Positions 29,214 to 55,773 of a DNA stretch of 64,000 nucleotides are shown here, piece by piece. Both the position numbers and the translations under genes were made by a program. The notes under the pieces are model-generated. The model ran no database searches. It saw only the letters and a list, made by a program, of their open reading frames with translations, and was not told the DNA's origin. Positions within the stretch are counted from its first letter, which is position 1; each line of letters opens with the position of its first letter. Source of the stretch: Verpa conica (lineage: Eukaryota; Ascomycota; Pezizomycetes; Pezizales; Morchellaceae); contig JAUFSD010000011.1 of the NCBI GenBank assembly GCA_033030425.1, positions 992,001 through 1,056,000 of the forward strand. Reading direction: 5' to 3'.

Positions 29214-30323
29214 ATGCATCCATCTACCTTAGGGCAACCCCTCGTCTTCCATGAGGAAGGTTTAAGAGCCCATTCATCAAGTGTGGACGGTCTCGGTACT
29301 AAGCGTTCTGCTATTCATCAGATGAATAGCCACGGTGATGATCATGAGTCTACTATGTATACTCCCATCACTTCACAACCCCACTCTAAGAAGGAGGTTT
29401 GCGTTGGAAAGCCTACCACCCCTATCTCCCATGTCGGAAATCACCGTGAACCTGCCCAAGGTCACAGAGGCCTTGAGCGGGAAGTTTCGATAAAGACAGT
29501 ATGCATGGCTGCCAAAAATAACGACACAATGGAGGCCAACAGCATTCATGAGAGCGATGGATCTTGTGACAATGGGGCTCATCTCGATTCACAGGCTCCC
29601 ATTGTTACTACGACTGCAGGTGCTTGGGTACCGGCCCACATCATCCTTAATAGGTTCCCAAGTACAGAATTCACGTTGTACGTGCCGCAGCCATCCACAG
29701 AGCCTCGCCCTACCATGAGAAACCGCATTAAGCAGCATTCTCCTCCATACACTCCTGCTATCTCGGTCGGTGACTTCGCAGACGACCAAATCGATATCAC
29801 TGTGGATGTGATCTCCGAACTACACATTCACCCAGCTCTTAGGAGAATGAAAGGCAGTGGTAACCTCCTAGGACCACGTCCAATGCCGAGATCACTCACT
29901 CCCCCACCTGAAGGACAGAAGGAGCATCAGGATACGCACAGGAAGGAATCCCACCACGCACGCACCTTGGGTGGAATTGGTGGTTTGTTATCCGGCGGGA
30001 AGAGGGAACAGACGGCAGTTGCCAGCGCTAGTTCACCTAATTTACCCTCCTTCTTTGTTACACCACCTCAGTCTATTCGCTTGAGCATCTCTTCATCTGA
30101 CTACACTCCGGCTACGTGGGTCACAGCCGGGGATATGGCGAACAACAGGTTACGTATTGCTAAGGCTGAACTTGAGTGCACCAATACCCGGAAGAGGCAT
30201 AATACTATCGGTCCTCGTCGCTCTGCCGTTCGGGACCTAATGAAGCAGGGAGGCTCCTCAGCTAGAGCAGTGGTCGTGCGCTGCCGCAAATCTCTTGGAA
30301 ATATTCTCGGTGGAGGAAAGTAG
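29214..30323 (+). CDS. Disordered protein with internal repeat
   Basis: Single exon, ATG 29214 to TAG 30321-30323, 369 aa. His/Ser/Pro/Thr-rich, with little predicted fold. Two related segments stand out: YTPAISVGDFADDQIDITVD (about residues 182-201) and YTPATWVTAGDMANNRLRIA (about 298-317). They share YTPA, then V, then GD[FM]A[DN][DN] and an alternating hydrophobic strand. The C-terminus is basic (RCRKSLGNILGGGK). No signal peptide or transmembrane span. Not recognised. Its codon use is more GC-rich than its surroundings, which supports real coding. Confidence 0.7.
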   Translation: MHPSTLGQPLVFHEEGLRAHSSSVDGLGTKRSAIHQMNSHGDDHESTMYTPITSQPHSKKEVCVGKPTTPISHVGNHREPAQGHRGLEREVSIKTVCMAAKNNDTMEANSIHESDGSCDNGAHLDSQAPIVTTTAGAWVPAHIILNRFPSTEFTLYVPQPSTEPRPTMRNRIKQHSPPYTPAISVGDFADDQIDITVDVISELHIHPALRRMKGSGNLLGPRPMPRSLTPPPEGQKEHQDTHRKESHHARTLGGIGGLLSGGKREQTAVASASSPNLPSFFVTPPQSIRLSISSSDYTPATWVTAGDMANNRLRIAKAELECTNTRKRHNTIGPRRSAVRDLMKQGGSSARAVVVRCRKSLGNILGGGK

Positions 30324-34802: not shown

Positions 34803-37415
34803 TTAGTGCCACCAAATCTGCCGCTCAAACTTTGTTTGTAGGGAACGTTTAGGGGTGAGCTGGCGTGATGGCCTTGGCGTAGCAGGATAGTATGTTGGAC
34901 TGCTAGCGCATATAGTGGAATGGTCCTCCGACACTATGCTTGTAGAATCTCTACTTTGACAAGTTGGTTTCTCTTGTAATGGCCTCTGGTCGTTGCAGAA
35001 GTGGCTTAATGAGTTTGGTGAATCGGGTGTACTTCTCCCAGGCTTTCGGTTATAGAACCGGGGGGTCATTGGTGAAGATGTCCCATACTTGGAAGTCTTA
35101 GGTGGCCCCCTCATAGCAGCGATATTACGGATTTGGTCTTTCTCAGATGTGGAGTGATCAACTGTCAACTTCGGATGTAACTCGTTATGAGTAGAGAGTG
35201 TAGTAACTGGCTTCAATGCGCTATGGTGGTAGCAGGTATTGGGTTTGGTACTAGGTCCTGGGGTGATATCTTTCAACGCCGGTTGCGGGGGTAATTTCTG
35301 ACCGCGCATCCGCCCTGTTGCTGCATGACTGGTATCGGTTGGTTTCTTTTGGAAAATTGTAAAGAGTGCACGAGATACAATTGAAGTACTCTCCCGACTA
35401 CGGCTGACCATCTGGGGTGCCACCTCAGATTCTGACTTTTTACGCATGCAAGCTCTGATGGCTATCGCGGAAGCGCCGATTGGAGTAAGTTGTGGTTTTA
35501 GGTTTATTTGGGTGTTGCGAGTCATTTTGATCATATTAGTTCCTTCTGAGATAATTGGAGTAGTATGCCCGGCCTCTGATATCATATCAGTATGTGAGTT
35601 TTGTAGATTACGTTGCTTTTTGTCCACATTGTCCACCTCTAACTCAGAATAAATTTGTAAACCGCTACTCTGCTTCGATTTGCTCTCGGTTGTGTGATCG
35701 TTGTGAGAGTCTGCCGTAACGCAGGTCCTGAGTGGGCTTCCGACCCCCGAACAACGCCTGTGCGCTTTATATCTTCTGCACAACTTGATTGGACTATCTG
35801 GGCGCGGGTTACCACCTCGGACTCTGGAGAAAACCTGGCCTGATCCGGGTTTGCTAGCTTCTTCTCTCAGCAGCTGCATTCTCTTTCCAATTGCCTTTGC
35901 TTGATTAATATACTTGAGGTCTACTGATGCTTTTCCAGTGAAGGTATTGAGGAGTTTGATGCACCATTTTGCTCTCTTGAGTTGCAGATATTCCGTCGCC
36001 TCTTGTACCGTGGAGTGAGTCTCCTTCTCCAGGATTCCGGCTTCCACGGTTACTCCATTAATATAGATGCTCCCCCACGTGATATGCCTGGTACTCAAGT
36101 GCACATTGTTAGGAGGCTTGGATTCTTTATTGGAGAGCTGGGTAGCATCGCTCTTTAGTCTTTCTATGCTAGGATGTTGTTTTAGAACAAACCAACTAGG
36201 GATATTGTGGTCTGTATGTGTCTCCTCATCATCCGTAGCCCTAGCTAGGGGAATGTATCCTGTAGAGGAGACCGTCTAAATAATACTATTGTCAGCGGCC
36301 ACCCGACTCACAGGTTTGCGTTAAGTATTCTGAAAAACGTACGGCTTTTCTCAGAAGAAATTCGATGAATCCTCCTGCAAGTGCCACCTCGATCATGACG
36401 AACCCCTGAGCATCGTAGTTAGTACTTCTAAAGGTAGAGAGAATAGGGCAAATCCATAGTTCAAGTAATGTTGACTACATACCTCTTTTTCAAATATGCT
36501 AGCAATCCTCTGCCAGCTTCTTCCTTCACCATATGATCCGTTACACTAGTTATATGGCTGGTTAGTAATTTACTTGGTATTGTAGTTGTATTTTGAGCCT
36601 ACCAGTTCAGCGATATTCTCCCCTTGATCATACAAGGTACGCTCCAATTCATTCCCGCCGATGTTCCTCACCAGGTCTTGAACGACAAGCTCAATAGCAG
36701 CTTTCTCGCAAAAAGTCTTATGCTCCTTATCCGTATTGTCATACGCAAACAATGCTGTGACTTTCTGATGGGTGAAATCTTCCTGCTTCTGAATGTTGTG
36801 CTTGGTAACTTCGATTGTCGTCGTATGGTCGTACTCGTAAGGCTTTTTATCCTGTGATTCGGTGTATTGAATGCATTGGCCTCCAAAGCTATTAGTTTTT
36901 GGCCCGGCTATATTTGGCACTTTCTCTCCCTCCTTCCACCAAACGGCAGCAGCCTTCTTATGGTGGCTGTGCCGTCCTTTTCTTGAATCGTTGGTTAGGG
37001 ATCTCTTGATTGCATTGGTACGATTGTTGACCACCGTAGCAGAGGGCATTAGAGATGTAGAGACTACAGAGTCATGAACTTCCTCATCGGCTGCTGGTTC
37101 ATCAATCTCGTTCGCTATACGGCTAAGTTTGAAGCTCGTGTAGAGAGGTATAGGGATCCGAGAAGGCTTTGGAGAGTAGCCAGCGATACCTTCCTTGTTT
37201 GGAACTGATTCTGCTGTACGATTATGTTCTTTAGACCTCGGGGCGCCTCGTACTTTCTTTTGCTCATTGTCCTTTGATACCATTGCTCTCCTGTTAGCCA
37301 ACACGTTTGCTGGAAGTAGTGCTGTTTGCTGTCTAGGAGCAATGGTGATGGTCAAAGGTATCGGTTTTGCATCCCAACAAGAGCCGCCTAGGTACGTAGA
37401 AGATATTGGGGGCAT
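34803..37415 (-). CDS. W-x10-G family protein 1 (803 aa), four exons
   Basis: Exons 37415-36603, 36545-36483, 36405-36343 and 36275-34803; all junctions are phase 0. Introns are 57, 77 and 67 nt with donors GTAGGC, GTATGT and GTACGT, and clear ACTAAC/CTGAC branches. The two middle exons are exactly 63 nt. The first has Trp at codon 11 (CNGSYGEGRSW); the second begins GF and forms a beta-hairpin (GFVMIEVALAGGFIEFLLRK). N-terminal of them, exon 1 ends in a helical stretch (AAIELVVQDLVRNIGGNELE). The long C-terminal exon is disordered and Ser/Thr/Lys-rich, with a repeated S-R-[ED]-STSIVS element, and ends QTKFERQIWWH. No signal peptide or membrane span. Function unknown; first member of the minus-strand array. 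Confidence 0.75.
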
Positions 37416-38597
37416 CGATATGGTATTATACCCTTTTCTACCTTAGGTTTTTGCAGTAGGTATTTATCCAGCCTTGTTGCTGGAATTGAAGTTTGAATAA
37501 TTGAGGTTGTAGGTGAGGATTTTTAGATGAATATGACAAGCGGAGAGGTGGGATTCTGTAGGTGGAAGAAGGGAGATTGTCACAGAAGGTAAACAATGTG
37601 CGTGCTGTGTAGTCGTACGTAGCTCTCGTACCAACGTACTCACACCTTATTGAAGAGGTCTTGGCGTGTCTTATGGGAAATCCAAGCATAGCCGCCCCTC
37701 TGTGGAACCATCAGAATATAGTGAATATACATTTTTGGCTGTTATACTACATCGTATATCACTTTCATATCATACTCTTCTTTGTGAATGAAGTATGATA
37801 CTATTATAGATGAATTGGAGAAGTACGTTGTATCCCCCGCAATGAGTTAGTAATCTCTAAACTCGGGCGTCCTAGCTTGCTGTCGATTTCAGCTGTTGGC
37901 CTTTGCTGCTGTTATAACAAGAGCGTATAATTCAGATATACTCATTATGTTTGAGTACTTATATAGTCAGATTTGGCTCACGTACGTTGTTCATGGGGTA
38001 GAAGTGCCATTAGAGCTGTTCCTGTGGCGCAGCGGGGTCCTCACAACAGCTGAATCTGTAAATAAAACACTATACAAGCTATCCTTTTCCTTCGTGTGGC
38101 TTGGTGTATAAAAAGTACCTCTCATACCAGAAATCCAATACACGACGCACGAAGGAAGGTAACTCCCCAATTTTCACTAATAATAACGTTTTTTTATACG
38201 TACTACGCGCTATTACATATTATCTACTGAACTGAAAAAATACAACTAAACCTTACTGCTATAAATTTGAAAGTTAAATCCCTGTTATGTAACTAAACAG
38301 CAATAAGATATGGCGACCGGAACACATCTTAACATATTCTGTAATCAAGAACGGTACTTTTCCAGCTCAATGAGCTACGTACTACGTACTCTACAGATGG
38401 TTTGCATAAGAATACTACTTGAGTTAAGTTGAGTACCCTTTTATTTAATTCTCTCAGGCCTGGGCAGGCGCACAAGTTATATCTACCCGGCCATATTCTC
38501 CGTGACTTTATTCCCCAGTAACAGTATTGCTCCCCCCCACACCCCCTCCTCCACAACTACTCATCAACCAAGTGAGAGCTAGAGTTCCATCTCGGGA
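37416..38597. other. Intergenic between array members 1 and 2
   Basis: Includes the presumed promoter of member 1 (T/C- and TATA-rich on the minus strand) and the 3' region of member 2. No gene seen. Confidence 0.4.
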
Positions 38598-39889
38598 TTA
38601 CTTTGGGGAGACAACACCCATTCTTTCTTCGATCAGAAGCAGCTTCCTATAAGCAGCGGCTACTTGGCGGCGGTGCACTTCCGGAAGGTAGGATCTCTGC
38701 AGATTTCTGATCTTGATACCCATTATATTACGTGAGTCCTCGAGTTTGCGTTGAGGGTCAACAGAAAATGTGTAGAAAGATGGCATCAAAGAGCCTATCT
38801 CAATGTTCTGTCCATTGACGACTTGCATACCCCAAGTCTTCATACGGCCAGTAGAGCGCTCGGTAAATGGTCTGTCAGGGTTGCTGATCTTCCTAAGAGC
38901 CCGAACGGTTGGTATCATAACGGGAGCTTCATGCGCGATGGCTTGTGTAGATGGCATTTTCGCTTTGTTTTTGCTTGAAGAAGTGGGGACTCTGCAAGCT
39001 GCAGGTGCTGGTGTTCTCTATTGTGTGTGATTTTAGTAATGATTCGGGTGTGGCACATAGCCTTCGACAATGTAGAGAAATATACCTTCCACAGGAGGTT
39101 CACATGGAATTGCTTATTACGAATCCTCATGCTGGTGATCATCCACCCCTATAGAATTGACGTTAGTATCTGAGTAGATATAAAGGATATAGAAAAACCT
39201 ACTTGGTTTGAGAGGAGTCTTTTGATATACCCCCATTCCACACCATAGCCATAATGGCCAAGAGACTAAACGTTTCTGTTAGCACTGGTTTATGCTGTAG
39301 ACGAGTCATTTGGGACACAAACGAGTGCTTCGATACTGGATATGCTACTCAGAGTTATAGTCATGAGAAACTGTACTCCCATCTTCTTGATGATAGAGTT
39401 GAATGCGCGTTTCAGATCATAGTGCCACTTTAGCGAGACAGGGGACTTGATTTTCTCAATATTGTGGAAAAGCACGGAGAACATCACTCCCTTATCCTGG
39501 GAGGGTAGGACATTGTCGACCTTCACAGGGACCTTCCTCATCAGACTATCTTCCCCCTTTCCGCATTTTGTACGGGTATCTTGTTTGACGATATCAAGAG
39601 CTTGATTGTTGCTCTTGGAAGCGGTACTAACATCCACTTCTAGCAGTGGTAGATGCTCCTGAGGAAGAGAGATCTTTTCGGGTTGATGGTCTTCGTTCTT
39701 GTGGAATGCTGTGGGCTTAGTAGGACCTGGCTGAATAGGGTCCGGATGGTCATCGTGGGATTTGCTCATTGAGCGGCTAAAGACACTGTCCCAGAAGTCT
39801 CCTGAGACGCTACCTTTTCTGTTCATCTTGGATTCATGTAGTCTTGGGTCATCAGGTACCCTACTTGAAAGTTTAGAAGGGCCTGACAT
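38598..39889 (-). CDS. W-x10-G family protein 2 (370 aa), four exons
   Basis: Start ATG 39889 (MSGPSKLSSRVPDD; the frame is open further but without ATG). Exons 39889-39323, 39265-39203, 39148-39086 and 39017-38598, all phase 0; introns 57, 54 and 68 nt with branches GCTAAC, ACTAAC and ACTAAA. Exon 1 is disordered and ends with a folded part (WHYDLKRAFNSIIKKMGVQF). The two middle exons are 63 nt each: SLGHYGYGVEWGYIKRLLSN with Trp at codon 11, and GWMITSMRIRNKQFHVNLLW starting GW. The last exon is basic and helical (PEVHRRQVAAAYRKLLLIEE) and lacks the FER-type end. The first intron uses the weaker donor GTTTGT. Confidence 0.72.
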
Positions 39890-41254
39890 GGCTTGTGTAC
39901 GGATCGAGGAGATCTGATCAGGAGGTTGATGGAGGATAGAGCTTTTAATGAAGAGTCGTGTGGGCAACTCGGGATTGACCAGGCTGGTGCAATAGGTTGA
40001 TGTTGTTTTGGTAGTGGGAATCGTACGGATTGTTGTGATTAAGTAGGATACAGGTGCTATGAGAGCTGTTCTGGTCTCAGTTACCCTCTCCTCTTGTGGG
40101 GGGCTGAGAATCTAAGGGTTTACTTATCACATACATACAGTCACTGCACACTCTCCAGCCGCAGGTGAGGGTAGGTTGGGGTGAAGAGATATGCCAAGTA
40201 TACACTATCTATGACCTTCTATTGGGGAGCACGTAGGCCCCCGTCCAACGAAAGATATGTATTTAGTATTCTCTGGGTCTCATTTGACCATACTAAGCTA
40301 AACCCTCTCGCTGGGTTTGTTTCTTCAGCTGCTTTTTCGGTCCGCGCGCGGCCTACAATGCGGTAAGCGTAGTATGCTGGCGTAAAGGTGATAGTTAGGC
40401 CATAATCAAAGTCAAGGACGCCTTGGATTTGAATATCGTTTTTTAGCTTGATAATCTTCAATTATAGTACATATCATTATGTTTATTTCTGATCCTTTCT
40501 TACTAGATTTTTACCATGCTAGATGATATATAAACTCTTCCCAAAACTGCCGTCGCCGTGATCAAGGAGATCATTTAATCTCACCATATATATGTCAAAC
40601 TATCGCCTATATACCTTTCTGAACTACGAGAGTCCTAGTTGAAAAGCGTTCTATCAATATATGACAGCTATAGTAGTTATACTTTATAGTACTTCTTATT
40701 TTGCCACTACCAGCTAGCATAGTACTGCTCATGCTACAGATTAACTCGCCTTGCGGAGATGCTAGGGCTCTTGCAGCTAGCTAACTGAGAATTCAATTGC
40801 CAGTTGCAAGACTTCTTTGCGTATGGGATGGGCATGCCTTACTATTGGAGGATCCTGACGTGACCTCGTTGGCCGGGCCAGGGCCCTTGCAGTGCGGCGA
40901 AAGTACCGTTATGGCTGACTAGGAATAAGATAAAGAAGCAGGGCTCAAGTACCCATCTGTATTCCATTAATGATTTCACTGCCTGCTATAGGCTACATAT
41001 ATATATGCAAAGGCCGGTAGTATATGAATGGCATATATATCATATCATTTGAATCTTGAATTATAGTACTACTTGTATCATATTCTTACAAAAAAAGTAA
41101 TACTTGGCAATCTGAAATGAATAACAAGGATTATGGTGTAGAATAACACAATACCAATCCAGCCTTACTCCACCTTTACTATCATGTTTCTGCCCAGCAC
41201 GGTATATCTCCATTTCTTATGCCAAAGCAAACAAGTATTGACCATCTTGTAGGG
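39890..41254. other. Intergenic between array members 2 and 3
   Basis: No gene or repeat recognised. TATATA runs are common. Confidence 0.4.
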
Positions 41255-42906
41255 CTAATTATGTTGCCCTTCTGTAGCGTAAGGATTAAACCTCTCTATC
41301 TGCATCCTGCTCTCCAGCAGCGCATAATTCTTGGCGGTTCGCGAGGCCCATTTAGTTCTACCATCCTTGATAGCAATTGGGAGTGCTAACGCCACCTCAA
41401 CGCCGTGGACTTGGCGCATAAAGCTGAGGTAATCAGCAGATTTTTCACCTTTACGCTTGGCCTGTAGCTCTTCAAAGTTTGGGTCAATAAACACAGCACA
41501 TGCACTAGAGTATGCCCACGACTGGGGATTGGTCGTGAGAATGTTGGACCTCCAGGCAACCTGTTGAATCTCCTTTCTTGGCCTTTGTTTCAATTCCTGG
41601 ATTCTGGGAAAAAGTTTGGCTTTGGTCCTCTGTAGACGTTCCATGGTGCTCGGTACTTGTTCTTTTTTGGTGGTCTTGCCAGCTGGTCCTTCAGGAAGTA
41701 TATAGGACTCGGGACCCTAATTACAAGCAGTTAGTATGGGTTTTATTGAAAGAAGAGATGATTGGGGTGAGACGCACTAATTGTGAGAGGCCAATAATAA
41801 GCTTCACCCTGTCAAACCTGAGGTAGCTCACAGACCATCCCTAAGATAGAGGTTATTAGCGCTACGTTTCTTTCAACGAGTGATGGTTAGTTACCCGCTC
41901 TGTAGTGGCAGTGTTGATGTCTTGCCAAAGGTCCTCACAGCCCCTAAGGCCAGACACCTGGTTTCAATGTGTTAGCTTATATAACGTACAATTCTAAATG
42001 GGAACGTACTAGCTGGCCCATGTCATTTCCATAGAGATCAATACTAGCCCTGAGCGTTGCAATTCCTACTCTGTTGATGAGCATACGAATGAATACTCCT
42101 ATCGCTGCCCTATTCTTCCACCTGAGGCGGCCACCGTTACTAGCATCCACGATATTGAATTTTGTTTCGTCTCTTTGCTCCTCCACTGCTTCTTCCTCAG
42201 CATGTCTATCTCCCATGAGCTTTCTCACATCCTCTTGATTTTGGATAGTATCTTGTCCGTGGCTTGGCCCCCCCAATTTATTTGAAATGAGCCCAATGAC
42301 AGGGGTGTATTTTGGTGGAGCTGTCAAGAGGGTGGCCTGACTTTGTTGTCCATCATGCGGGTGAATTGGGCCTTTACAGGCTCTGCGGGACAATGCAAGA
42401 CACATTTTATTGCTCCTCGCCGAGCCATCGGTGTTACCTATTGGGATATAGTTAGTCCAGGTTATAGACGTGAGAACATATATTGCCTGTCAGGAGTTTA
42501 GCTTACTGAATCCTTGAGTAGCTCTGATGGCTGCCGAGAATTCATAAGACAAGCGGACTTCTGCCCTACGGTTTACCATCTTCATTGGCCCCACAGGACC
42601 TGGGATTTTTGTGCACAAGCAATGTTCCTTGTGATTGTTCCTAAGATCGGATGGCCCTACTGCCATCAATGACCCCGGCTTGTAATTAACCGAGATAGGC
42701 AGCTTTGTGTTAGGACTGTGGGGTTTGATCATAGCCGATATCCTATTATCAGAGGAGACATCATCTACCTCAGTGAAGGTATCGATGGAAACCCTTGAAA
42801 CTACGGAAAGTCCTGTGTTCGTGTTGCTCTGATGGGCAACTTCCCCAGGAAACGTAACAATTGAAAGCCCCGACGCCCTAGCAGCTTTAGCTTTGCTTCT
42901 AGGCAT
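41255..42906 (-). CDS. W-x10-G family protein 3 (471 aa), five exons
   Basis: Exons 42906-42507, 42437-42010, 41957-41895, 41840-41778 and 41716-41255. Introns are 69, 52, 54 and 61 nt with donors GTAAGC, GTACGT, GTAACT and GTGCGT; three have perfect CTAAC branches. Exon 1/2 joins in phase 1, the rest in phase 0. Exons 3 and 4 are 63 nt: VSGLRGCEDLWQDINTATTE (Trp at codon 11) and GWSVSYLRFDRVKLIIGLSQ (starts GW). Exon 2 ends with a helix-like segment (IGVFIRMLINRVGIATLRAS). The C-terminal exon is basic then compact (FMRQVHGVEVALALPIAIKD), without the FER end and less disordered than in relatives. Unknown function. Confidence 0.75.
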
Positions 42907-44275
42907 TATGAAACAGGATAGATGATAAAGTAGATGGATATTGGGAGTTTTGATGATAGAAGATTCAGTTTGGTAGGTTGATGTAGCTGCTGTGTTTGGG
43001 TATGATTAAGGAGAAGCAGTGTGGTTAAGCAGGAGGTAGTTCCTATCATACATCTTGTGGGTAAACAAGAGCTGCGTTGGCTCGGCATCTATGCCCTAGA
43101 CGAGCTGTTAGGGCTTGCACACCGAATGTCCTAGAACATTATATACTAGCCAAGTGATACATCTATGCTCAAGCTTCCACCTATGATGCTTGACATACAT
43201 TGTTTCCGTATTTGATATATACGCAATGATCAACAGTTCACGATTTATTTTGATGCGCAAGTGATGCCTTAAGACTGATTCTCAGGTATCAGAGCATAGC
43301 CAATGTTTGGTTATGCTGGTTCACTGGCTCGTACTCCATAGTGTAGTATTCGGCCTTTAGCTACACCCATCGCTATAGCCATGCATAATGTAGGGTGCTA
43401 TTGGTGTAGTGGCAACAATTGCTTGCTTATGTGTTAGCATTATATATATTAGAGATATCATAGAAAGACAAGCTTGTATATGCGATAGTGGGGTAGTTTT
43501 TTAACTATGAGGAATCTGGGGCTTTGAATTTTGAAGGGACATGCTGGTTTTTGATGATTATTGGTGATTGAGGGCGGTTTTTCTTCAATACGCCAGCTAT
43601 AGAGTTTTATTCGGGGTGATATCAGTGTGAGTCTTATATTGTGCTTCAAAACACATTCAATCATTGACACCGTCTTCCTCCATTTTAATTTTTATATATA
43701 ACATGTGAGGCCTCGCTACGAGCACCATGAACACGGAACCAGTTCCTCAATATATATTATCTACATGATGTGATTCCTATCCAGCTAGGATTGGCTTTAA
43801 AGTGCCAGATGAAGAAACATGCTCTCATTCAACCGTACTAAGACTTACGAAAGACAACCGGGCAGTGTTGTAGCTATAGATAATAGAGAGGATCAAGGAC
43901 TGAATCGACCTACCTGGCTCACAGGATCGCTTGATATTGGAGTTTCTAGCTAGGGTGACCTGGAAGGGACTGGCATTGTTTATCTGTACCTGTGGAATTA
44001 AAGGAAATATCAAGAACATTGACAGAATCAACTTTTATTCATCAGAGCTGCCGTAATCATGGCTGATTATGGGGAGTTCTTCCATAACTGTGTAGCCGTA
44101 AAATAGTATATTAATCATGAAATAGGGATATTGTTACAGCATCTAAATATCCATTGGGTTTGAGGCAAACTCGAGCTATTTGTAAACAGGCCTAAGAAAT
44201 GAACCTCTACTAGGATATGATGTATGATGGGATATTCTCCAGCCATAAGCAACCATGCTCCTTCGTTCCTAGCGC
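42907..44275. other. Intergenic
   Basis: No gene recognised. Possible promoter of member 3 near 42910-43080. Confidence 0.4.
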
Positions 44276-45376
44276 TTAACCTTTATGGTTGTTATACAAA
44301 CGATCCAAATGTTCTCTCATCAAAATCTCCTGTCGGTGAACCCACCTGTCAACTCTGACAATGTTGAATCTCTTCCCAGTATTACTATTTCCCGAGAACG
44401 AGGGAATATCTGGGGTCTCCCACTTCCAACCTTCCTCTTGCTGACCATCTGTTGACAAGACCCAATTCCTGACACGGCCAACGATTTCCGTGCCCCCTTT
44501 AACCCAATAGCCGGGATAACGGGTGGCCACAGCAGTGGTGGTGTCTTCCATAACACCGAACAGGTCGATGCCACTAGCGTCAGAGGCCTGATCAATGCAT
44601 TTAAAGTTGTGTTGGGCGTCAGGAACATCCAGAGCAAACAGAAGCGCGGCATGAGCGGACGTTGGAGTCCATTGGCGGTGTGCATGCTGCCAGCTGGTTG
44701 ACTGTGGTACCAGGGTTTGACGAAGGCTTCCTGGATTCTTTTGGGTGACCATAGGTTTAGGTATGCTCGAATTGAAACGAGTGTTATTCGAGCAGACCCG
44801 AAGAGCGGATGTCTCGTGGAGATATGCCCCGCTGATGTTATTGCTGATGTTTCTGAGAATAGCGTCCGAAGCAAGCACCTGAAGGTAGGTTACGCCAGAG
44901 ATTTCTCCCTCTATGTAGAGCTTGATGGGCTTCTCAGCCAAAACCAACCATTCCCACGATGGTACCCACACGTCCCCATCACACACACCGATTGTGCGAG
45001 TGAGTTCGCTTTCATCCTGCTGGAATTCCTCCCAGCTATTATAAGAACGCCCCTTAGTGTGGACCATATCTCTCTGATGATGAATCGTATTAGCAGAGAA
45101 GCACACGCAATATTTCATAGGCAGCCGGGAACGATTGCTGCCAGCGAAAGAAGCACCAGAGGTAGCTGTACCTTTAATCTCTTTGATTATGATGTTTGTA
45201 AGGGTTAAAGGATACGAGAATATGACTGTTGATCTTGCTGTGCTGTGGGAACATACACTGCAGAAGATGAGGTTGTTTTGGTATCCTTCAAGAACATGGA
45301 ATGGAAGAAAGATACAAATAAATGTAAACATGGAATTCTTGGCGGTGGGGACAGCCATATTCAAGTCACACTCCAT
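44276..45376 (-). CDS. Hypothetical protein with hydrophobic N-terminus
   Basis: Open frame of 366 codons from ATG 45376 to TAA 44276-44278 (another ATG at 45355). Residues about 16-30 (SMFTFICIFLPFHVLEG) resemble a signal peptide or anchor. The rest is rich in Trp, Ser and Asn with several N-x-[ST] sites (NISNNIS, NNT, NSS), which would fit a secreted protein. Near the C-terminus, VRNW-(10 residues)-GW repeats the Trp-to-GW spacing of the neighbouring family but without introns, so kinship is only a suggestion. A second long frame overlaps on the same strand (44874-44320), so coding status is not certain. Confidence 0.45.
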   Translation of the reverse strand: MECDLNMAVPTAKNSMFTFICIFLPFHVLEGYQNNLIFCSVCSHSTARSTVIFSYPLTLTNIIIKEIKGTATSGASFAGSNRSRLPMKYCVCFSANTIHHQRDMVHTKGRSYNSWEEFQQDESELTRTIGVCDGDVWVPSWEWLVLAEKPIKLYIEGEISGVTYLQVLASDAILRNISNNISGAYLHETSALRVCSNNTRFNSSIPKPMVTQKNPGSLRQTLVPQSTSWQHAHRQWTPTSAHAALLFALDVPDAQHNFKCIDQASDASGIDLFGVMEDTTTAVATRYPGYWVKGGTEIVGRVRNWVLSTDGQQEEGWKWETPDIPSFSGNSNTGKRFNIVRVDRWVHRQEILMREHLDRLYNNHKG

Positions 45377-47381
45377 CACTCCTCGGAAACACCTAGAAAA
45401 GCGTGGAGGTTATTATAGGCAACCTGTTTACATTCTCACAGCACCCAACACTGTCACAATGTCCTCCTGCCTGTGAAATCAACGGAGTCTTCTACATACT
45501 ACTAGCTACAAATAATACCTCCACAGTTATTGACTATCTCTTGACCACTGACACACCAATAATGCCCTCGCACCATATAACCCAGTTGTCTGACAGCTGG
45601 GAATGAACTAGCGCCTAATTACAATTCTTCATAGGGTAGAATTATAGCTAAACTAACGACTTTCCACACGTCCGGTGCTTGGAGTGATGAGGTTATACGT
45701 TACGGAGACGCGCTTATTGTGTTATAAGTGCTATATTGGACAGATTGTCATCAGTGATACGATATCTGAGTTGCACTAAGCTAAATGGGGTTGTGTTCTA
45801 CCGCCAGACGCAATCTTTCGGTGAATACTCTTATAAACAGGTCCCCCCCAGACCTTTACTACAAGAACGAAATCCTAATTATACACCCCGCCTCTACGGA
45901 CTGCATCCGAGCTTATAAGCCTGATGCTCCTTGCTGCATACGTCTGCTTCCCTTTTATGTGTACACGTTGGACAGTTCCCAGAAGGGGTTCTACATGTAC
46001 CGGGACAAAGCTGGTGGTGTACATATTCCTTGGAGACTATCTGGTAAATCTGACTGAGTGATTGGAGCAGTCGTAATGACGAAATATAAAGATTAGTCTA
46101 TTAGCTGAATGCTTTCGAAGAAGAATCCTAGACTAGTCGCAAATCTTTTCAAGTAGCATGATTAATTGTCCTTCTGTATAACTACACCAGGCGGCTCATA
46201 GCAATCATATTGGTCTAACAAACAGTACAGTTCAGGGAAAGAAGTGTCCGAACGCACCAAGACATCTTTTAGGCCAGCCTGTTTCAGGTGAGATAATCAA
46301 TCCCCGGCGCTCATGATACCCCAGCAAGCTATTGCTCATAGAGAATAGCTATTCATTTCTTGGGCTTTTAATTTGCTCTAACAGATAAATATAAATATAC
46401 CTACGGTGGTAAATCCTAAAACCCACACCCTCATGGTATAAATATGGCGACATAAAGAATTATGAGTGGTACTCTACTTAGTATAAATAGTACCTTTTTT
46501 AGAGTGACATGTGATGTAAGATATTTGCATATACGCTCTATCCATAGGTTCGAATGATATGGAATTTAGGGCTCATTATACATAAAATTACCTTTTTTTG
46601 TCGCCTTGCCCGGTCTAACTCTATACATTTTTAGTTTGGTATAGAGAACTATATTATCAGCGCTCAGAAAGGATCTAAACTTTATCCATTGTATGAAATC
46701 AAAGTCAACTATGTAAAGAAACCTCGCCTTGACTGACTCTGAAGAAAAATTGCCTTTATAATAGTGACCTCTTGTTTAACAGCATGGATATTAGCGTACA
46801 AATGCACCAACATTCACTGAATCAGCAGTCAAACGCCTTTTGCTTAGCGCTGTACAAGTTGATCCACACGGTTGTCACAGTATGTGACTATTTCATATCC
46901 CGTTACAGGTCTGAGCGTCGCTCCACCCCTTGCTACCGCTAGGGTTATATATTATGAGGAATCTTAGCCTATCTATTTCTTATTGTTCTAAGTTCAGAAT
47001 TCATATTTTTACAGCTCGTTCAACTTGAGTATAGTGGTGCATGCGCGTCAATGTAACATCGCCAGTAGCACGATACAACAGTCGAATCCATAGGGGAAAA
47101 CCACTAGGCTAGATAAATACGCCTACCGATATTAAGGAGATCCTTAAGCTTCTTTACGGACCTTATCGGATACTCCTTCAACTAAAGTGTCATATATGAA
47201 TATTAATGCGGTAATTCAGTAGAAGAATTAGAGAACTAGGCCACTCGGTCGCATTCAAAAATCTTTGCTTAATTTAATGGATATGAAAACTTATATACTC
47301 CTACTTTGTGCGAACGTATAGAGTAAAAGTGACAGTTTACATCTATAAACCATTGAAATCTCGGACTAGATTCTTGCTATC
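45377..47381. other. Intergenic; weak ORF at 45785-46057 (+)
   Basis: A 90-codon plus-strand ORF contains DSSQKGFYMYRDKAGGVHIP, protein-like but unsupported. Otherwise no feature. Confidence 0.3.
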
Positions 47382-49258
47382 CTAATTCCAAACAACCTTT
47401 CGCTCAAATCTTTTAACATTCTCAACGTTCCTAGAGATACCCCCACTCATACGATTGGCTCCTCTTCTGACCGTATTAAGTGGTGCCAGCTGGAGAGATT
47501 TACTCTCTAGTACTCTTTCATTGCATTGCAATGGCCGACACATTTGCTGCTTGTCGGCTCTAGGCTTCCTGAAGGACGTTCGTTGCCCTTGGCAATGTGT
47601 AAGTTCCGGTACTTCCATGCCCTGAATATGGATATTTGCTAGTTGAGGCCATTGCATGAGAAGAAAACACTTTTATTAATGGCATGGAGATTGTTGAGTA
47701 TACCTCTTTTAGCTTGTATAGTCTCAACGCCCCTTGTACCTGGTCTAGCAACGTTCGAATTGATTTTCCTTTGTATCGCTGATGCTGACGTTCTAACCGT
47801 GCTGTTCACCTTGTTTCCCGATGTCTTGCGTATCACTTTATCTTGCTCCGAACAATTGTAGTTGGGGGTGTGTCGTAATGTTTCACCGACATCATCATGA
47901 GCTAGTATTAAAAAGCAAGTATTAGTATGTTCACTCCCCACGATACGGACTTTAAATAATCCCAGAATTTAGGAGCACCGGATAGCGCACCATCACTTAT
48001 ATTCCCTAACCATTCCATAATAGTTTTATACTTTTCACTCCTATGATAAGCCCACCCTCGTGGGATTGTAATACTCCTCTTTTTACATAGTTAGCGATAA
48101 TATAACACAATATACTATGTTGAGTGCCCCCAGCTTACCTCGGTTGACAGGATAAACACAACAGTATCATTGTCCATAAAGGCGTTAATCACAACGTATC
48201 CCTATAACAAATATAGTCAACATCACCTATTACAAACACCCATGTCTCAGATCATAATCCCCATTACCTCCTCATGAAACACCCCCAGTACCTCCAGCCA
48301 CTTCTCCCTTTGACTCCGCACTTGATCCCGCTAATTTAGAGCGTTAGTATTGCACGACAGCAGGCAACAGATGATGTCACTCACAAAATCATGAATGATT
48401 TCCGAGCCAGTATGGATGACCCCCTCCATCACGAGCCTCCCCAGCGTATCTCGTATATCTGTTAACGTCTTACTAACCTTCGAGAGAAATGACAGAACGT
48501 TTCCCGTTACAGATACACCGTTGATGATTGCACAGACACTGACATTTACAGCACGATCATATATGTTGTCGTTATCTCCAGCAGCGCTGGCGGTGAGACA
48601 TCCGCTATGGTTATGTCCCCCTACTACTACAAGGTCAAGGAGTTGGGACGGATTACTTCTTAGAATATCAACTAGGACAAGTCATTAGCTGTGTTTGGTC
48701 TATGAAGGGTTTCTACGTCATCCAAACCAATCTGAAATGATGCATCGTATGTAGCTGCTGATCCTCCAGTGCATGAGGATCCTGGGCCACCGTTCCATGA
48801 GCAGGTACACGGCATCAAGGGTAACAGATGAAGAACGAGGAGAAAACGCTTCCCTATTGATTACCAAACTAGATTCCTTGTAAATCACCCTGTCGCTATA
48901 GCCCACTGTGTTGAGTGGGTATGGTAGGTTGGGGGGAGAGATGGTGATTGATAGATTTATGTCGTTCGTTAGGTTTGGCAGGGTGGAAGAGGTGTTTGTG
49001 GCAAGTGCACTCAGCACCGGCAACAGTCCCTGGGGGCTTTCACCAGCAAGACAATACTTCTTGGCCAACGACTAGTGAAATCCAGACGCTGCGATACTGA
49101 ATGCTCAATAACTACGTACCTATTATAATAAATACATGTCTCTCTCGCAACTTCGGGTAATTGATACCCAGAAAATGAAGGTCCACCAGTACAGCTCTAC
49201 ACGTATAGCTACCCAGGCAGCTTGGTAAGACATGGGTGTAGGATACTGCAGCGGCCAT
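47382..49258 (-). CDS. W-x10-G family protein 4 (about 500 aa), multi-exon
   Basis: ATG 49258 (MAAAVSYTHVLPSCL); exons 49258-49136, 49071-about 48720, 48671-48385, 48330-48268, 48201-48139, 48078-about 47985, about 47910-47704 and 47638-47382. The 63-nt exons are RDQVRSQREKWLEVLGVFHE (Trp at codon 11) and GYVVINAFMDNDTVVFILST (starts GY), flanked by introns with GTGAGT, GTAATG and GTAAGC donors and CTAAC branches. The exon before them contains AIINGVSVTGNVLSFLSKVS and a helix SKTLTDIRDTLGRLVMEG. The C-terminus ends NVKRFERKVVWN. Two joins (48720/48671 and 47985/47910) are not settled in phase, so a frameshift or unusual splice site there is possible. Confidence 0.6.
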
Positions 49259-49945
49259 CATACGGAGATATGAAACGTAAAGAAAATATGAGGAATATAA
49301 TTGGGGAGAGATGAATCTTTAACACACATAGATGATCTGGTATCGATTTAATGCGCTAAAGATATGTTTCAAAATTTGTGATATGTGAAGAAGGTATGGA
49401 GTTGATATACAGTATCTCAGCAACCTAGCAAACTAGGAGTCTCTAGAGAAGCGCTTTCATACCCTCTATATATATCTTCATAGACAAATCGACGATACTC
49501 TAAAACCCCTAATGAAACCCTATCCCAAGCCCCGGATAACATGTAGACGTTACCACAGCAACGCCTGCTGAGTACCCACGCTATACCGTTTTAGGTAGCT
49601 AAATCCCAGCAATATGCTGGCAGTACAGCGCGAGTGATATGCCATGACGCAGTGTGATTTACCATGATGCAGTAGTAATAGATTTCTTTATTTATTATTT
49701 CCTCCTATGTAAAAAATTCGATTGCGTACTTTAATATGGCAAAAGAGAAAGACACGTCAAATGGCAGATTATACATATAATTTGTTAGAACGGTTAGAAA
49801 ACTTGTATTTAAATTGTCTCTTTAAGCCTTATCCCCCACAATCTGTCATATAAAACTACCAACAAAGGCTCTCTCATAATAGAGCAGAGTACCCTGGTAT
49901 GATATTACGGCTAGCTTTGAACCCCTGGTCAGGCGCCAGCATGTA
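49259..49945. other. Intergenic between array members 4 and 5
   Basis: Nothing recognised apart from TATA-rich sequence. Confidence 0.4.
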
Positions 49946-51762
49946 CTAGTTCCATTTAATATCCCTCACGCGCAACTGGCTAGGGGTGCGTTTGATGAGA
50001 TGCGGATTCGATATTTGTTGCTTAAGACCCATTGATGTAGAAGACCTAGAGTTGCTACTTTCTACTCTGATTTCTTCACCAACCCCAGCACCTATAAACC
50101 TTCTAGGTGCTCTATGAGTAGTATCGGTAGCCGTAGTAATGTCGCACATGCTCTTAGAATGTCCCCGTTGAGAGATTAGAGTGTTGCGTAAAGGATTTGT
50201 CAGCTTCTTGGGTACCAGGACAACTAGACTATCAAGCGACCGAGTGGTATTTTGAACCCTATTCGTCTTAGGAATTTCCTCTCGGCCTACCCTTAAAGTG
50301 TCTTTCTGGCCATTAGAGCCGACGGTTTGTTTTGGAAGCTCGTGCCAAGGTGTTCCGCGGTTCCTATCGGATGCTGCTACCCCAGTATTCCCAGAAATCT
50401 GTGTAGTGATATAACCCTCATTATCCCTATCAATCTTCTTTACTAGAGCGTCCCCGAATGCTATGGTTTCTTCGAGAGCTTTCATACGGTGTTGGTCAAT
50501 ATCTATTGATGCACAAGGGTAAAGATTGAGAGCACTCGATGAGGAGTGAAGCTTGTTTGCAGTAGCTACTGAGCTTACCATCAACCCCCTGTAAGGTTCC
50601 TTCGGGGAAACTTTGCCGAGAAACTGTGGTAAATTTGATCTTGGTCGTATGGAGCCAGAAATACTGTGGCCTATATCCGACTTGGTACGGACATGACCAA
50701 TAGTTATAGAAGAGCTGGTGGACATTCGAGGCTCTTCATGATCTTTTCTTGTATTTGACCTGATATCCGCTGTACTGCTTGATGGGCGTAGTTTTTTAGG
50801 TGCTTTGGGATATAGAGGAGTAGGAGTTTGTGCAACCTGGGCCCTCAGGTTCTCAGATGTAGAACTCCCCCGTAGTCTTGGACGGTCCTTAATATTGTAA
50901 GATTGGGGTGCCAAAGCACCTGTTCCGGGACGACCCTGTTGAGAAGAGACCTCAGAGCCAAGATTCCAGCGTGGTGGGGCTGCGAGAGTCGCTGTAGGCC
51001 TTTTCGGTAATGCCATTTTCATAAAGCCGGTAAATTCCTCAACCGCTGTCAGCTGAGATGAAATCCAGAACGAACTACAAAGTAAGGTACCTTCTTATAT
51101 ACAGAGAGACATAGACTTCCTTTCTCGATTGCTGCTTTTGTAATCTCGTAGCCCTATAGCGGCGATTAAGAACGTGGGCAAACACATTTAGAGAGTCACC
51201 ACTCACCCTTCTCGCCAGAACTGCTCTCACTTTTATTGCATTGGAGTTATTCTGTGGTGGTTGCTACAGCTGATATCAGTATGAGACAATTTAAATATAG
51301 GGGGATACATACCATACTCCCCCAGTTCTCATCCAATGAGTCACTGATTGCGGCAAGTCCCTCATCATCAACATTGCAGATTGCTTTCTCAATTACCGGA
51401 ACCATTAACATCATCAACCGTTGTTCGGCTTCATCACTTGCTCCGGAGGGAGGAAGGATGTGAACACGTTGATGACGCTTGTGATGACCATCTCCACCAA
51501 TTTCCGCAAGAGAAGAAGCGCCGGTAACCTGGGACCGCCCAACATTCTCCTTCCCAAGATGGTGGCTATCTTCATCTTCTACACGGGGATCACTCTCATG
51601 AAGGAATTCTTGTAGGGAAATATTTCCTAATGCACCTGGGAGGCCACTCTGTGATTCAGTACCAGTCAATGGAGGAGATGGAAGGTCAAAGAAGTCATCA
51701 AACGTGATTCTCTGTGTTGTACCCGGCGATAAAGGGGTGGTAAACCTGATGTTAGGATGCAT
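49946..51762 (-). CDS. W-x10-G family protein 5 (558 aa), four exons
   Basis: Exons 51762-51313, 51263-51207, 51153-51091 and 51052-49946, all phase 0. Exon 3 is 63 nt and reads GYEITKAAIEKGSLCLSVYK. Exon 2 is 57 nt (19 codons, no Trp): an acceptor 6 nt upstream (ATCAG) would restore 63 nt but puts a TAG at codon 2, so the site seems to have shifted. Exon 1 ends with a helix (LMMLMVPVIEKAICNVDDEG). The 368-residue tail is disordered and carries five or six copies of a Ser-rich motif ending [DN][IL] (GSSTSENL, PSSSTADI, RTKSDIG, HSSSSALNL, HSKSMCDI), possible phospho-binding sites. It ends QLRVRDIKWN. The last intron (38 nt) is short, and an alternative donor GTATAT would shorten exon 3 by 4 codons. 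Confidence 0.7.
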
Positions 51763-53546
51763 GTTCGCTCTGTCGGGGGAGGGTAGTTTGTATGGTGCGT
51801 CGCTGTCACGTACTATGGCGAAGAAAAGCCCTTAGAAAGTAGACCCTTCTCTAGATGTTGCGACAGTTCGTTGTGAGGGCCAAATATCTGTGTGTGGTGT
51901 GCCCTGCAATATAGGGCAGACGCGCATAAAGACCTGCCCCATAGAAAAAACATCTGCTACTTTGTAAATTCCTTGGCAGCTACAGACATTCGGATTCACG
52001 GTACACCCTCCGCTGTCTGTATGATGAATATTAATTTAGTCATTCAGTTTCAAATAGACTGAAAATTCAAATTTCATTTGTTTGTCTATACGGGAATGTA
52101 TAATTGATAGTAATGATTCACTGGATCTTGAAATACATACTCGAGTGACCATTCATGATTGTACCTCTTAACGGTTACCGCCATTGTGAGCCGGACCTGT
52201 GGATCATATCGACAGTAGTTTCCGTACTATCAGAACCTACGTAAAACATAAACACTCTTCCGGATTCCCTATACTCTGTATCAAGTCATTCTCTCTTATC
52301 TAGTCTCCTCCCCCGGCGCGGAGTTGTTGGGAAATAGTGTATACCACTAAAAACTAACATGACAAAATTACCAAGGTGCCGAGATCTCATGCCACAAGAC
52401 CAAAAAAGCTGTTGATACTTACAGTGTTTCTTTCCGCTACAGCTCAAATCTACAAATATCGCCAATATGGAAATATTATTTTGCACCTTTAAGCATTGAA
52501 GGGAACACGGCAGCCTGTCCGCCCTTGGTCCTAGGATTGGACGCCCTACACCCGTAGTCTCTCTCATCCGGGTACTATAAATACCCTAGGGCGGGATATC
52601 AAGGACCGGACGGACTGAATAGACTATAGTCGCCGGCAGGGCGCCAAGATCTGGTGGGTTAGGGTTGATTTAAATGTTTCAAATCTTCAAGAACTCACTT
52701 TAGGTGTTTATCTACGGAATTATAGTTGATATGTCATCATATGAATTGCCGAGAAAGGCTAAATTCTTCCTTCTTAGAGGCCTATAAGCCCCATACATAG
52801 TGTGGAGCTTCTAACCCCGGACGGACTACAACTCATAGTCCGTCCGGTCCTAGGGTGGCTGTAGGGCCCCAGACGGTTGAGAATATATATTAACCATATC
52901 ATCAAGTACTCACCCACCTTATACAGGCTATATTTATTGATTAGTAGGTCAGAATATGTGTCGGGATTATATACTTGACCAGTTCGAAAATATTTACACA
53001 ATAAGAATTGTACATACGTTTGTACGCTAACCCCACAAGTACCAATGTGTAGGCATTGAATACCAGTTTGTCATAATTTGTGTCTATTAGTTTCTGCCAG
53101 TTCCTGAGTTCACCCTAGAACGACATGCAATGTTTAAGAGATAGCGATTTTCCAGTATCGAAGCTAATTCCTACAATGAGCAACGTCTCCGGTTATCATA
53201 TCACGATGCCAAGGGATCGACCGGCATAAACATTACTAGGAATATATATTCGGTATGGAACACGAGAGGTAGAGAAGATAAAATAATATATGATTTATTG
53301 GATAAAGACTACTATCAAGTAATCTATTTTACAGAACGTAATATGGGTATATAAAGTGTGGCTCAACTTTGAGCTTACATGTGTGAATAGTAGGAGGAAC
53401 AGGGGATAAAAGGTAAAGAAATAATATAATACATATAGTTAGTAACCAAGGGAAAAAAAAAAAAACAGGTGCTCCTGCACCCAAGAACAATCTTAACGCA
53501 TAGCACGTTTTACTTTATAGCCACCGCCAAACCAGGCTCTGCGCCT
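51763..53546. other. Intergenic; contains a small inverted repeat at 52582-52870
   Basis: No coding sequence recognised. The inverted repeat is listed separately. Confidence 0.4.
52582..52870. repeat. Small snap-back repeat sharing GGACCGGACGGACT
   Basis: GACCGGACGGACT at about 52603-52616 recurs inverted at about 52836-52850 (AGTCCGTCCGGTCC), with CCCTAGG outside both. The right side is itself a hairpin (GGACGGACTA ... TAGTCCGTCC at 52818-52843). Perhaps a degenerate MITE. Confidence 0.45.
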
Positions 53547-55773
53547 TCACCAGCTAACGCGCCTTTCAAACTTTGTTCCAATGTGGGAACTAGCTCTTCT
53601 CCCGCACTCCGATACCGATAACTTAGCCGGAATACTGTGTCTCCTAACCACAGAAGCCGGAGAGTGGGTATTCTTGCTCATACCCCGCTCTGTTGCTTTC
53701 TTTGTGGGTTGTCCCCTCCGCACCTCCGAGTTGACCCACTTCTCGCCACCAATCTTTTTAATCCATTCAATCATGAAGGATTTTCCGCCGATCTTTCCTC
53801 CACCGATTTTTTTTTCACCGCTCGCGATCACTGAGTTTCTCGGAACGATAACCCTGTCTTTTGAGACTCCACCGCTGCCCCTTGGTTGCTTGACCACCCC
53901 CTTCTCACTCTTTTCAATAATGTTTTTGGGTACAAGTCTACCCGAATTTCTCTTTGTTTGAATAACTTTATTGGAAATCTTTGTATTAGATTTATTATAG
54001 CAATTTTTGCTTCGAGGAACACCTGCAGGGGTAGGTGCAGGCGCAGCCAATAGCAGACTGGCCTTCTTTGTATCGGCGGTGGTATGAACTGGCCCGCTAA
54101 TGATACTAGTGTTAGTGGGTGGAGGAGAGTAAATATTGAACCCAACATTATTTTCCGGCAAATCCCCATCCTTCTTCATTATTTTGTGCTCCCTGCTAGT
54201 TCTGAGCCTAGGGATATGGGAGGAGCTCTTGCTCATGATATATTTAGCCCTCCATGCTAACGCGCGAGAGTACAGCCCAGTGGATGGTGACACTGGTGAC
54301 CCTAAGGATCTAGTGATCGATCTCACACTCGAATCCGAGCTCATGAATTCTGTGGTGGGATTCGTGGTATGGTGCTCGGGTAATTCGACGTTCCCAACTA
54401 AAGGGAGTATGGTTGGAGTTGGTGCTAAGTTGACCTGTGTATTACTCGTGTCTGCTACCTTTTCAGAATGCAGTTTTGGGAATAGGACTCTGGGGAGAAG
54501 GATCGTCGTGTCCTTATAAGACTTAGATGGTGAGGGGATGGTATTGTTGTCACTCCTCCTACATCCAGAGATGCTGTTATCAGAGATAATAGTCGATGCT
54601 CCTGCCACAATTCCTCGTGTGGTGACCGTCGGTGAGATTTGTGATAATCTCAGAGATCTACGTGGCTAATAAACTGTTAGACTTGAGGACGAACCACTGC
54701 ATAATCAACACTGTACCTTAGGAGTGCATTTAAAGTGTAAAAACCCATCGCGATTTGCACAAGAGACGAAAGTGACGTTCTAGATAATGTTTATTAGCAA
54801 TGATAGCAGGGTCCCACTGACAAGTGATGAATCAGCTTACATGTTTTTCCATGATAGTTTCGATTGGGCTTATTGCTGAGGTATTGGGCCGGACCTATAG
54901 CCCGACTGTTAATATACATAACCCATAGTCAACAAGAGAGGTTTAGTGTACTTACAATGGAGAACCTTTCCTTCGTGAGCTCGGTTTTAAGACGACAGTA
55001 TGTGATGTACTTCATGGTACCGATGGTATCCTTAATCTCAGCAATAATTGCTGGGATATTCCCACTTTCGATCACATTGCCGGCAAGATTGGTTAAAGTA
55101 ACAGTCACACCTGGATTAATAAAATGTTCATGGGACTTAGTAGGGGTTATAATAGGTCCCCCAGTACAACTTTGGATAGGTGCATCCAGAGTTGCCGTAG
55201 TGGTAGTAATAGATTGGGTGGTGGTAGAGCGTCTGACGAGTGCAGGGCGTGTGGGTGATCTCTTTCTGGCCTCTGCTGACTATTGAGTCGAATGTTAGCT
55301 ATGAACTTAGAGTTCCGTGGAGCAGGCTTTAAAACATACTACGGCGATACATGGGACAACCAATACGCCGTCATCAATTCTACAAGTCCCAATCCGGTAT
55401 CCCTACAGAGATGTATTAGTATTTGATTACGTTGAGGAGACAATTGAAATTCACCTCGCTCTCCATCTTAGCCTTAATTGGTGCAGTGATCGCTCCTTTC
55501 GGGGTGACCTTAGTGTAAATTAGTATTAGTAAGTATTGAAGTTTTGATTAATAGATATCTTACAATGTTATAGCTAACTGCTAGCAAGGAATTACAGAGG
55601 CTTCTATAAGAGAATGAGGAGGTGATTCTAGTAATAGCGGCAATAGCTTCATTGATCCTGTTTATAGCACTAACTTCTTCGTGCTGAAGAATCTTAGCAC
55701 ACGAAATTGCTCGAATGGGCATACGGGCGGGTGATGCTGCGTTGATGGTGATGGGGGTGATAGAGTTAATCAT
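53547..55773 (-). CDS. W-x10-G family protein 6 with two modules (628 aa), seven exons
   Basis: ATG 55773; exons 55773-55564, 55508-55455, 55402-55340, 55279-54956, 54894-54841, 54779-54717 and 54665-53547, all phase 0, introns 51-61 nt with CTAAT/CTAAC-type branches. The module occurs twice, each time as a 54-nt exon plus a 63-nt exon: VTPKGAITAPIKAKMESE + GYRIGTCRIDDGVLVVPCIA, and VRPNTSAISPIETIMEKH + NVTFVSCANRDGFLHFKCTP. The two hairpins share C7, D11, G12 and L14. Before the second copy comes TLTNLAGNVIESGNIPAIIA and a helix (EIKDTIGTMKYI). The 372-residue tail is disordered and basic, with a Gly/Lys block (GEKKIGGGKIGGKSFMIEWI), and ends GTKFERRVSW. The first intron ends TAAG rather than YAG. 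Confidence 0.72.

Follow-up and report, generated by a model that had tools for sequence, protein, structure and literature searches.

Introduction

Powdery-mildew RALPH effectors are paralogs that are unrecognisable by sequence and are linked by a characteristic intron and a predicted fold, and the cited part of the source gives their length as about 80–130 amino acids (aa) (PMC7857584). The wtf genes have common exon and intron sizes, and the section cited reports 13–76% identity in five tested pairs (PMC9562144). Schistosome micro-exon genes (MEGs) are presented in the cited portion of their source as a lineage-specific gene family with short exons (PMC10526429). Fungal allorecognition genes (HET, NLR, gasdermin) show high polymorphism and form hypervariable families according to the cited part of that account (PMC10197012). 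Here we describe an array of six genes, G1–G6, in the fungus Verpa conica. The array lies on the minus strand at positions 34803–55773 (about 21 kb) of a stretch of 64,000 nucleotides (nt), which we call the window and whose numbering is used below. This window comes from contig C11 (JAUFSD010000011.1, positions 992001–1056000) of a genome of 45.8 Mb in 25 contigs. The genes share a pair of tiny exons, and they are best read as a lineage-restricted, apparently non-secreted, strongly diverged family whose function we infer. All splice sites are predictions, and the analysis concerns one genome only.

Results

The original prediction was that six minus-strand genes each carry a pair of tiny exons with phase-0 borders. 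This was borne out by the predicted gene models and by scans that turned out to be specific to the array. The first tiny exon has 21 codons in G1–G4, 19 in G5 and 18 in each of the two modules of G6 (G6a and G6b), and all borders of the tiny exons are in phase 0 in the predicted models. The second exon was expected to have 21 codons in seven copies, and it does so in 7/7 as modelled; for G5 a reading of 51 nt (donor GTATAT) is possible as well, and its splice score is slightly higher (15.0 vs. 14.7 for 63 nt). The described combination, in which both exons measure 63 nt, the first has Trp as its codon 11 and the second starts with Gly-aromatic, was seen in G1–G4, which are all four of the genes whose first exon is 63 nt long. 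G[FWY] stands at the start of six of the seven second exons, and the remaining one opens with NV. Two types follow each other along the chromosome: G1–G4 have the 21-codon W-type first exon, and G5–G6 have 18–19 codons.

A structure-based scan was run over 264 kb of the 45.8 Mb (the window and 100 kb of each flank). It looked for an acceptor, an open exon of 51–63 nt, a short intron, a second open exon and a donor, with introns before and after the pair. When a 63-nt second exon opening with G[FWY] was required, five places were found in the window, all on the minus strand (G1, G3, G4, G5 and G6), and none in the 100 kb on either side; a simpler scan recovers G2. We also used a scan that made no demand on residues (first exon 51–63 nt, second 30–120 nt). 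It found a 63-nt second exon at six loci on the minus strand of the array, some of which also allow shorter alternatives. The comparison sequence, 507 kb of other strand (window and flanks, both strands), gave 17 matches of any length, none of them with a 63-nt second exon. The residue-free scan missed G2 because no branch-site match is present in the third intron of this gene. Codon usage summed over the 14 tiny exons, with stop codons counted, favored phase 0 (+15 bits vs. −59 and −103 bits). The observation of the exon pair is real and is confirmed.

Introns in the window are short, with donor and branch sites of the fungal type, and those of the array are mostly 49–77 nt long. Stop-free spliced models were obtained for four genes, with 803 aa for G1, 471 aa for G3, 628 aa for G6 and, if the longer first intron is used, 352 aa for G2. 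G1 (34803–37415, minus) has four exons (37415–36603, 36545–36483, 36405–36343 and 36275–34803); the second and the third are the tiny pair (63 + 63 nt, CNGSYGEGRSWQRIASIFEKE / GFVMIEVALAGGFIEFLLRKA). An alternative donor at 36671 gives 780 aa, and the donor at 36602 was preferred because a gapless alignment of G1 with G3 across the exon border results. G2 (38598–39889, minus) has four exons, no internal stop and two possible first donors. The donor at 39322 (GTTTGT, 57-nt intron) gives the same spacing from Gly to the exon end as in G1, G3 and G4, and the donor at 39376 (GTACAG, 111-nt intron) gives the 352-aa protein. The tiny exons of G2 (39265–39203 and 39148–39086, minus, 63 + 63 nt) have W at codon 11 and open the second exon with GW; an alternative first exon of 17 codons is without the W. 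G3 (41255–42906, minus) has five exons (42906–42507, 42437–42010, 41957–41895, 41840–41778 and 41716–41255), of which the third and the fourth are the tiny pair (63 + 63 nt, W at codon 11, second opening with GW).

For G4 (47382–48681, minus) the model is partial. It consists of an exon ending at 48385, the tiny pair (48330–48268 and 48201–48139, 63 + 63 nt, W at codon 11, second opening with GY) and a last open frame ending at 47382, which probably belongs to G4; the start and the middle of the gene have no model. G5 (49946–51762, minus) has the exons 51762–51313, 51263–51207 and 51153–51091, the last two being the tiny pair (57 + 63 nt), and a tail to 49946. Its model is clear through the second tiny exon, and its third intron is ambiguous. 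This intron may be of 53 nt, or of 65 nt from the 51-nt exon form, both with a weak GAG acceptor, while options of 38 and 50 nt are without a branch site; with both exon forms, the best phase-0 third intron requires the weak GAG acceptor. G6 (53547–55773, minus) has seven exons and contains the module twice (54717–55773), with the tiny pairs 55508–55455 and 55402–55340 in G6a and 54894–54841 and 54779–54717 in G6b. Both pairs measure 54 + 63 nt, and it is the second exon of G6b that opens with NV.

The genes had been described as looking unrelated by sequence, which was too strong, as the modules can be aligned and the C-termini have a common motif. We aligned the helices and both exons by the Smith–Waterman method against 500 shuffles, which gave 21 pairs from the seven modules. 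Six of the 21 pairs had z > 4: G6a–G6b (8.4), G1–G4 (8.3), G1–G3 (6.4), G1–G2 (5.0), G5–G6a (4.3) and G1–G6b (4.2). These pairs link all seven modules, which argues for paralogs of common descent. In left-one-out profiles, six exons built the profile and the seventh was scored. Each of the seven second exons ranked first of 314 open YAG-63nt-GT stretches, and without the first two residues six of seven still did so, G3 falling to rank 20. The first exons ranked 1 (G1), 4 (G2), 5 (G3), 2 (G4), 76 (G5), 1 (G6a) and 1 (G6b) of 1043. Identity to G3 is 8–19%, and the intron positions and phase are retained.

Judged from sequence, the seven modules share descent and G1–G6 are paralogs; the G6a–G6b score marks an internal duplication of the module in G6. 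The idea of common descent with very large divergence is well supported by the profiles, alignments and scans. The claim that the divergence was very fast did not stand in the same way, since with one genome it is indistinguishable from very old. A recent duplication at the DNA level was considered and rejected: repeats of at least 24 nt in the array amount to five direct families and five inverted pairs of only 25–28 nt.

The module has about 76 residues. It consists of a helix, a conserved Gly and a second helix, followed by the first tiny exon (exon A), which ends in a helix, and by the second (exon B), which is a probable beta-hairpin. The first two helices were modelled, and the third helix and the hairpin were deduced from hydrophobicity alone. 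For the contiguous exon stretches before the pair (seven rows), AF2 gave helices at 4–26 and 28–44, with a mean pLDDT of 79 and a pTM of 0.47. In G1–G4, 19 residues separate the conserved Gly from the exon end, given the G2 donor at 39322, which was chosen partly by that comparison. A fixed-spacing profile of the helix block ranked G1 first and G3 eleventh of 4683. The column-mean hydrophobicity of exon A peaks at −11, −8 and −5/−4, as in an amphipathic helix (shuffle p 0.006). That of exon B peaks at 2, 4, 7 and 9 and again at 14, 16 and 18, with polar positions 10–11 between them (shuffle p 0.08 for strand 1 and 0.04 for strand 2). The predicted helix and two strands with a turn therefore hold for the column averages, but the single sequences are less regular. 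The beta-hairpin in exon B is a reasonable assignment with moderate support.

We also scanned hydropathy (KD19) in five proteins or parts of them and in pieces of G5, G6 and G4, all outside the middle of G4. The cut-off for a membrane segment is usually about 1.6. The highest value, 1.63, was reached once, in the second tiny exon of G1, and the remaining scanned stretches gave at most 1.58. We read the G1 maximum as the core of the module and not as a membrane helix. By hydropathy only, none of the five proteins for which the start is modelled (all except G4) has a strong N-terminal hydrophobic segment (maxima −1.12 to 0.71), which argues against classical secreted effectors.

The last part of the proteins had been described as a long disordered tail. 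It is more than disorder: an end motif was found in at least three genes, and G1 and G2 have a second conserved stretch. The only informative result of a repeat search was a match of 28 nt (75%) that joins the coding ends of G1 and G6. The motif [KR]FERx[IV]xW stands at the extreme C-terminus of G1 (TKFERQIWWH-stop, 34803–34835), G6 (TKFERRVSW-stop, 53547–53576) and G4 (KRFERKVVWN-stop, 47382–47414, in a frame of the 3' part of the gene), with a weaker match in G5 (LRVRDIKWN-stop, 49946–49975), all on the minus strand. This motif played no part in selecting the genes. A loose form of it, written after the motif had been seen, ends 8 of the 1231 open frames of at least 60 codons in the 264 kb, and half of these are G1, G4, G5 and G6. 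A stricter DNA pattern occurs at five places in the 45.8-Mb genome, three of which are G1, G4 and G6. The other two (contigs C3 and C19) were inspected and are not at protein ends. The string KFERQ is the animal motif of chaperone-mediated autophagy; this reading was rejected for G1 because G4 and G6 are without the Gln.

The second conserved stretch follows the module. It consists of TWG..NG...G and then helices, and it was found in the last exon of G2 (38598–39017, minus) and within 36275–35832 of G1, with z about 5 for the pair. The similarity of G3 and G4 to this stretch is within noise (z < 2.2), that of G3 being at most weak. AF2 gave a pLDDT of 50 for the G2 tail. The last exon of G1 (34803–36275, minus) also contains the string SR[ED]STSIVS twice.

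The module had not been recognised and was thought to be possibly undescribed. This was followed up in Pfam, NCBIfam and PDB sequences, and no convincing match was found, only matches at chance level or below the cut-off. In Pfam, neither the five spliced proteins nor the tail of G5 gave a match above the cut-off, and no HET, NLR (NACHT/NB-ARC) or gasdermin domain was found in the five proteins. The best Pfam match of the seven modules had E 0.04 (UL11, one member, below the cut-off), and an origin from a known domain was rejected on such single weak UL11 matches (E 0.04–0.31). NCBIfam, which was searched with the modules only, gave a best E of 0.088 in one member, and the PDB sequence matches were at chance level (best E 0.14 and 0.038). 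Among 7997 protein database candidates scored, none matched G3 at E ≤ 1 and none matched the G1–G3 alignment at E ≤ 10. As a control we used a protein encoded about 4 kb outside the window; its best match has 39% identity, and its matches bear PF11915, a domain known from fungi. With a best match of 39%, the database evidently contains no close relative of the fungus, which makes the absence of matches weak evidence.

When the genome was queried with six proteins, or parts of proteins, from the array, they matched themselves and never a sister gene. The G1 query gave one extra weak, unrelated place (E 0.09), and the G2 tail alone found only itself. Since this search misses the sister genes, it is unable to count the family, and further copies may exist elsewhere in the 45.8 Mb. 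No description of such a family was found in the literature, in a search limited to one open-access library. The sequence family is new to the libraries searched, and the evolutionary phenomenon, paralogs betrayed by gene structure, is already known.

Several other features were observed in the window, which has no tRNA and no Rfam match. A piece of a pogo-like transposase with DDE_1, HTH_psq and weak HTH_Tnp_Tc5 matches lies at 26161–27000 on the plus strand (within 26161–28017), and the frame after it, 27343–28017 (plus), matches nothing in Pfam at E 0.01. An integrase-core-like fragment (rva_4, E 1.2e-5, slightly below the cut-off) is located at 19881–20228 (minus). Between G3 and G4 there is an open frame of 377 aa (44276–45409, minus) with no Pfam match and no module in the scans. 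Two long polar frames beside the array, 29157–30323 and 31907–32980 (both plus), contain neither the module nor the C-terminal motif; in Pfam the first matches only DUF5870 (E 0.012, below the cut-off) and the second nothing. A DPBB_1-type domain (E 2.7e-5, slightly below the cut-off) was found at 61800–62339 (minus).

Discussion

The best overall explanation, to which we give about an even chance, is that the locus is an old tandem array of one apparently non-secreted family of intracellular adaptors under a conflict-type or self/non-self regime. One coding module, in the predicted order helix-helix-helix-hairpin, recurs seven times in six genes of the same strand. According to this explanation, the small domain would bind one partner, and the C-terminal peptide may dock on a second one. 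The variable N-terminal region and the linker would carry the differences between the proteins, and each protein would act as an intracellular adaptor that binds at both ends. Such an adaptor is suggested by the build of the proteins, in which a small folded domain is combined with a long, polar linker and a C-terminal peptide that is kept fixed. Selection of a conflict-type or self/non-self regime may maintain the genes, as strong divergence in a transposon-bearing stretch fits such a regime. The conflict-type role taken by itself is tentative and rather unlikely. A bolder possibility is that the family is undescribed and that its proteins have a small domain of a new kind (helix-helix-helix-hairpin), followed by a long linker and by a C-terminal docking peptide of fixed form. 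The family would evolve so fast in a self/non-self or drive-type conflict that the splice pattern, the hydrophobic skeleton and the last ten residues alone betray the common origin. This we consider distinctly doubtful.

A number of observations weigh against the adaptor explanation. The other 15 of the 21 module pairs have z < 3 (range −1.1 to 2.83), and the fixed-spacing helix block ranks G2 only 194th and G4 43rd of 4683. Single sequences often have no peak at the helix or strand angle, and the codon usage of several individual tiny exons does not favor phase 0. Neither G2 nor G3 has the C-terminal motif, which G5 shows in a weak form, and the second conserved stretch is solid for G1–G2 only. 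An irregular intron or a gap in the model is present in G2, G4 and G5, and some members may therefore be decaying. The adaptor and conflict parts are purely inferred, and much of what was seen can also be explained by old, weakly constrained duplicates.

This last possibility is the most serious of the alternatives, although we hold it doubtful. The genes would be ordinary tandem duplicates of great age in a region with transposons and weak constraint, shaped by age and relaxed selection, with no conflict role and with some copies decaying. Low identity with retained intron positions is typical of old paralogs, the pogo-type transposase (26161–27000) and the integrase-like fragment (19881–20228) lie in the window, and the models of G2, G4 and G5 are irregular. 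However, G1, G6 and G3 keep long open frames (803, 628 and 471 aa), and the hydrophobic pattern and the C-terminal motif are kept as well, which indicates purifying constraint on parts of the proteins. It is unlikely that the module is a winged-helix-like DNA-binding domain, with three helices and a hairpin wing, and that the proteins are lineage-specific nuclear regulators. The order helix-helix-helix-hairpin, partly modelled and partly read from hydrophobicity, with the hairpin right after the third helix, would suit such a domain, as would the net positive charge of G1 (+31), G2 (+24) and G3 (+19). But no helix-turn-helix family was found in Pfam up to E 10 for any of the seven modules, nor in the NCBIfam scan, there was no convincing PDB sequence match, and G5, as far as it is modelled, has a net charge of −8. 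The approximately 10 residues between helices 2 and 3 are also long for a winged helix, which counts against this assignment.

Still less probable is a killer/drive or incompatibility family that evolves like the fission-yeast wtf genes. The array does consist of multi-exon fungal paralogs with extreme divergence and similar exon sizes. The wtf proteins, however, are multi-pass membrane proteins, whereas multiple membrane segments are missing in the scanned stretches of the array, where the KD19 maximum of 1.63 was reached once (G1) and all other values were at most 1.58. It is very improbable that the genes encode secreted effectors that share a fold and a single conserved intron in the manner of the RALPHs. 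In the cited part of the source, RALPHs too are paralogs without sequence likeness, linked by their characteristic intron and predicted fold, but they are about 80–130 aa long, against 352–803 aa for G1, G2, G3 and G6 (PMC7857584). The array genes have three or more introns instead of one, and the best KD19 value in residues 1–30 is 0.71 among the five proteins. A classical secreted effector is largely refuted by the missing N-terminal signal segment in these five. As for a chance assembly of splice-like sites picked by eye, the small size of the exons favors it, as do several weak sites (the donors GTTTGT, GTAATG and GTACCT, the GAG acceptor of G5 and the missing branch site in the third intron of G2). 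Chance was rejected on the residue-free scan, with six loci vs. none, and the residue profiles, the pairwise alignments and the independent C-terminal motif also speak against it, so that its probability is negligible.

In this fungus, gene structure and a C-terminal peptide reveal a family that is missed by an ordinary protein search. Some fungal "orphan" genes may likewise belong to hidden families. The exon pair together with the C-terminal motif provides a handle for finding relatives and for asking about conflict-type selection.

The comparison with the known systems shows both likenesses and differences, within what the cited parts of the sources describe. Hidden paralogs betrayed by gene structure occur in the RALPHs and in the array. 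RALPHs, however, are short, secreted and have one intron, whereas the four full models of the array reach 352–803 aa and have no signal segment (PMC7857584). The array also has the phase-0 tiny exon pair and the C-terminal motif, and it is these features that set it apart from the RALPHs. Like the array, the wtf genes form a family in a fungus, with several exons of similar size in each gene family and, in the cited section, very low identity among some members (PMC9562144). The scanned stretches of the array have no membrane segments of the wtf kind, as compared by description and by the Pfam scan. MEGs resemble the array in their short exons and in being a lineage-specific family. According to the cited portion, however, MEG proteins are secreted, and the short exons are regularly interspersed among long introns (PMC10526429), whereas the array, in a fungus, has two tiny exons and introns mostly of 49–77 nt. 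With the allorecognition genes, as described in the cited part (PMC10197012), the likeness is in divergence only, and the five spliced array proteins (all except the full G4) have no HET, NLR or gasdermin domain. Thus, the array is another case of hidden paralogs, and on the features tested it is a member of neither the RALPH nor the wtf family.

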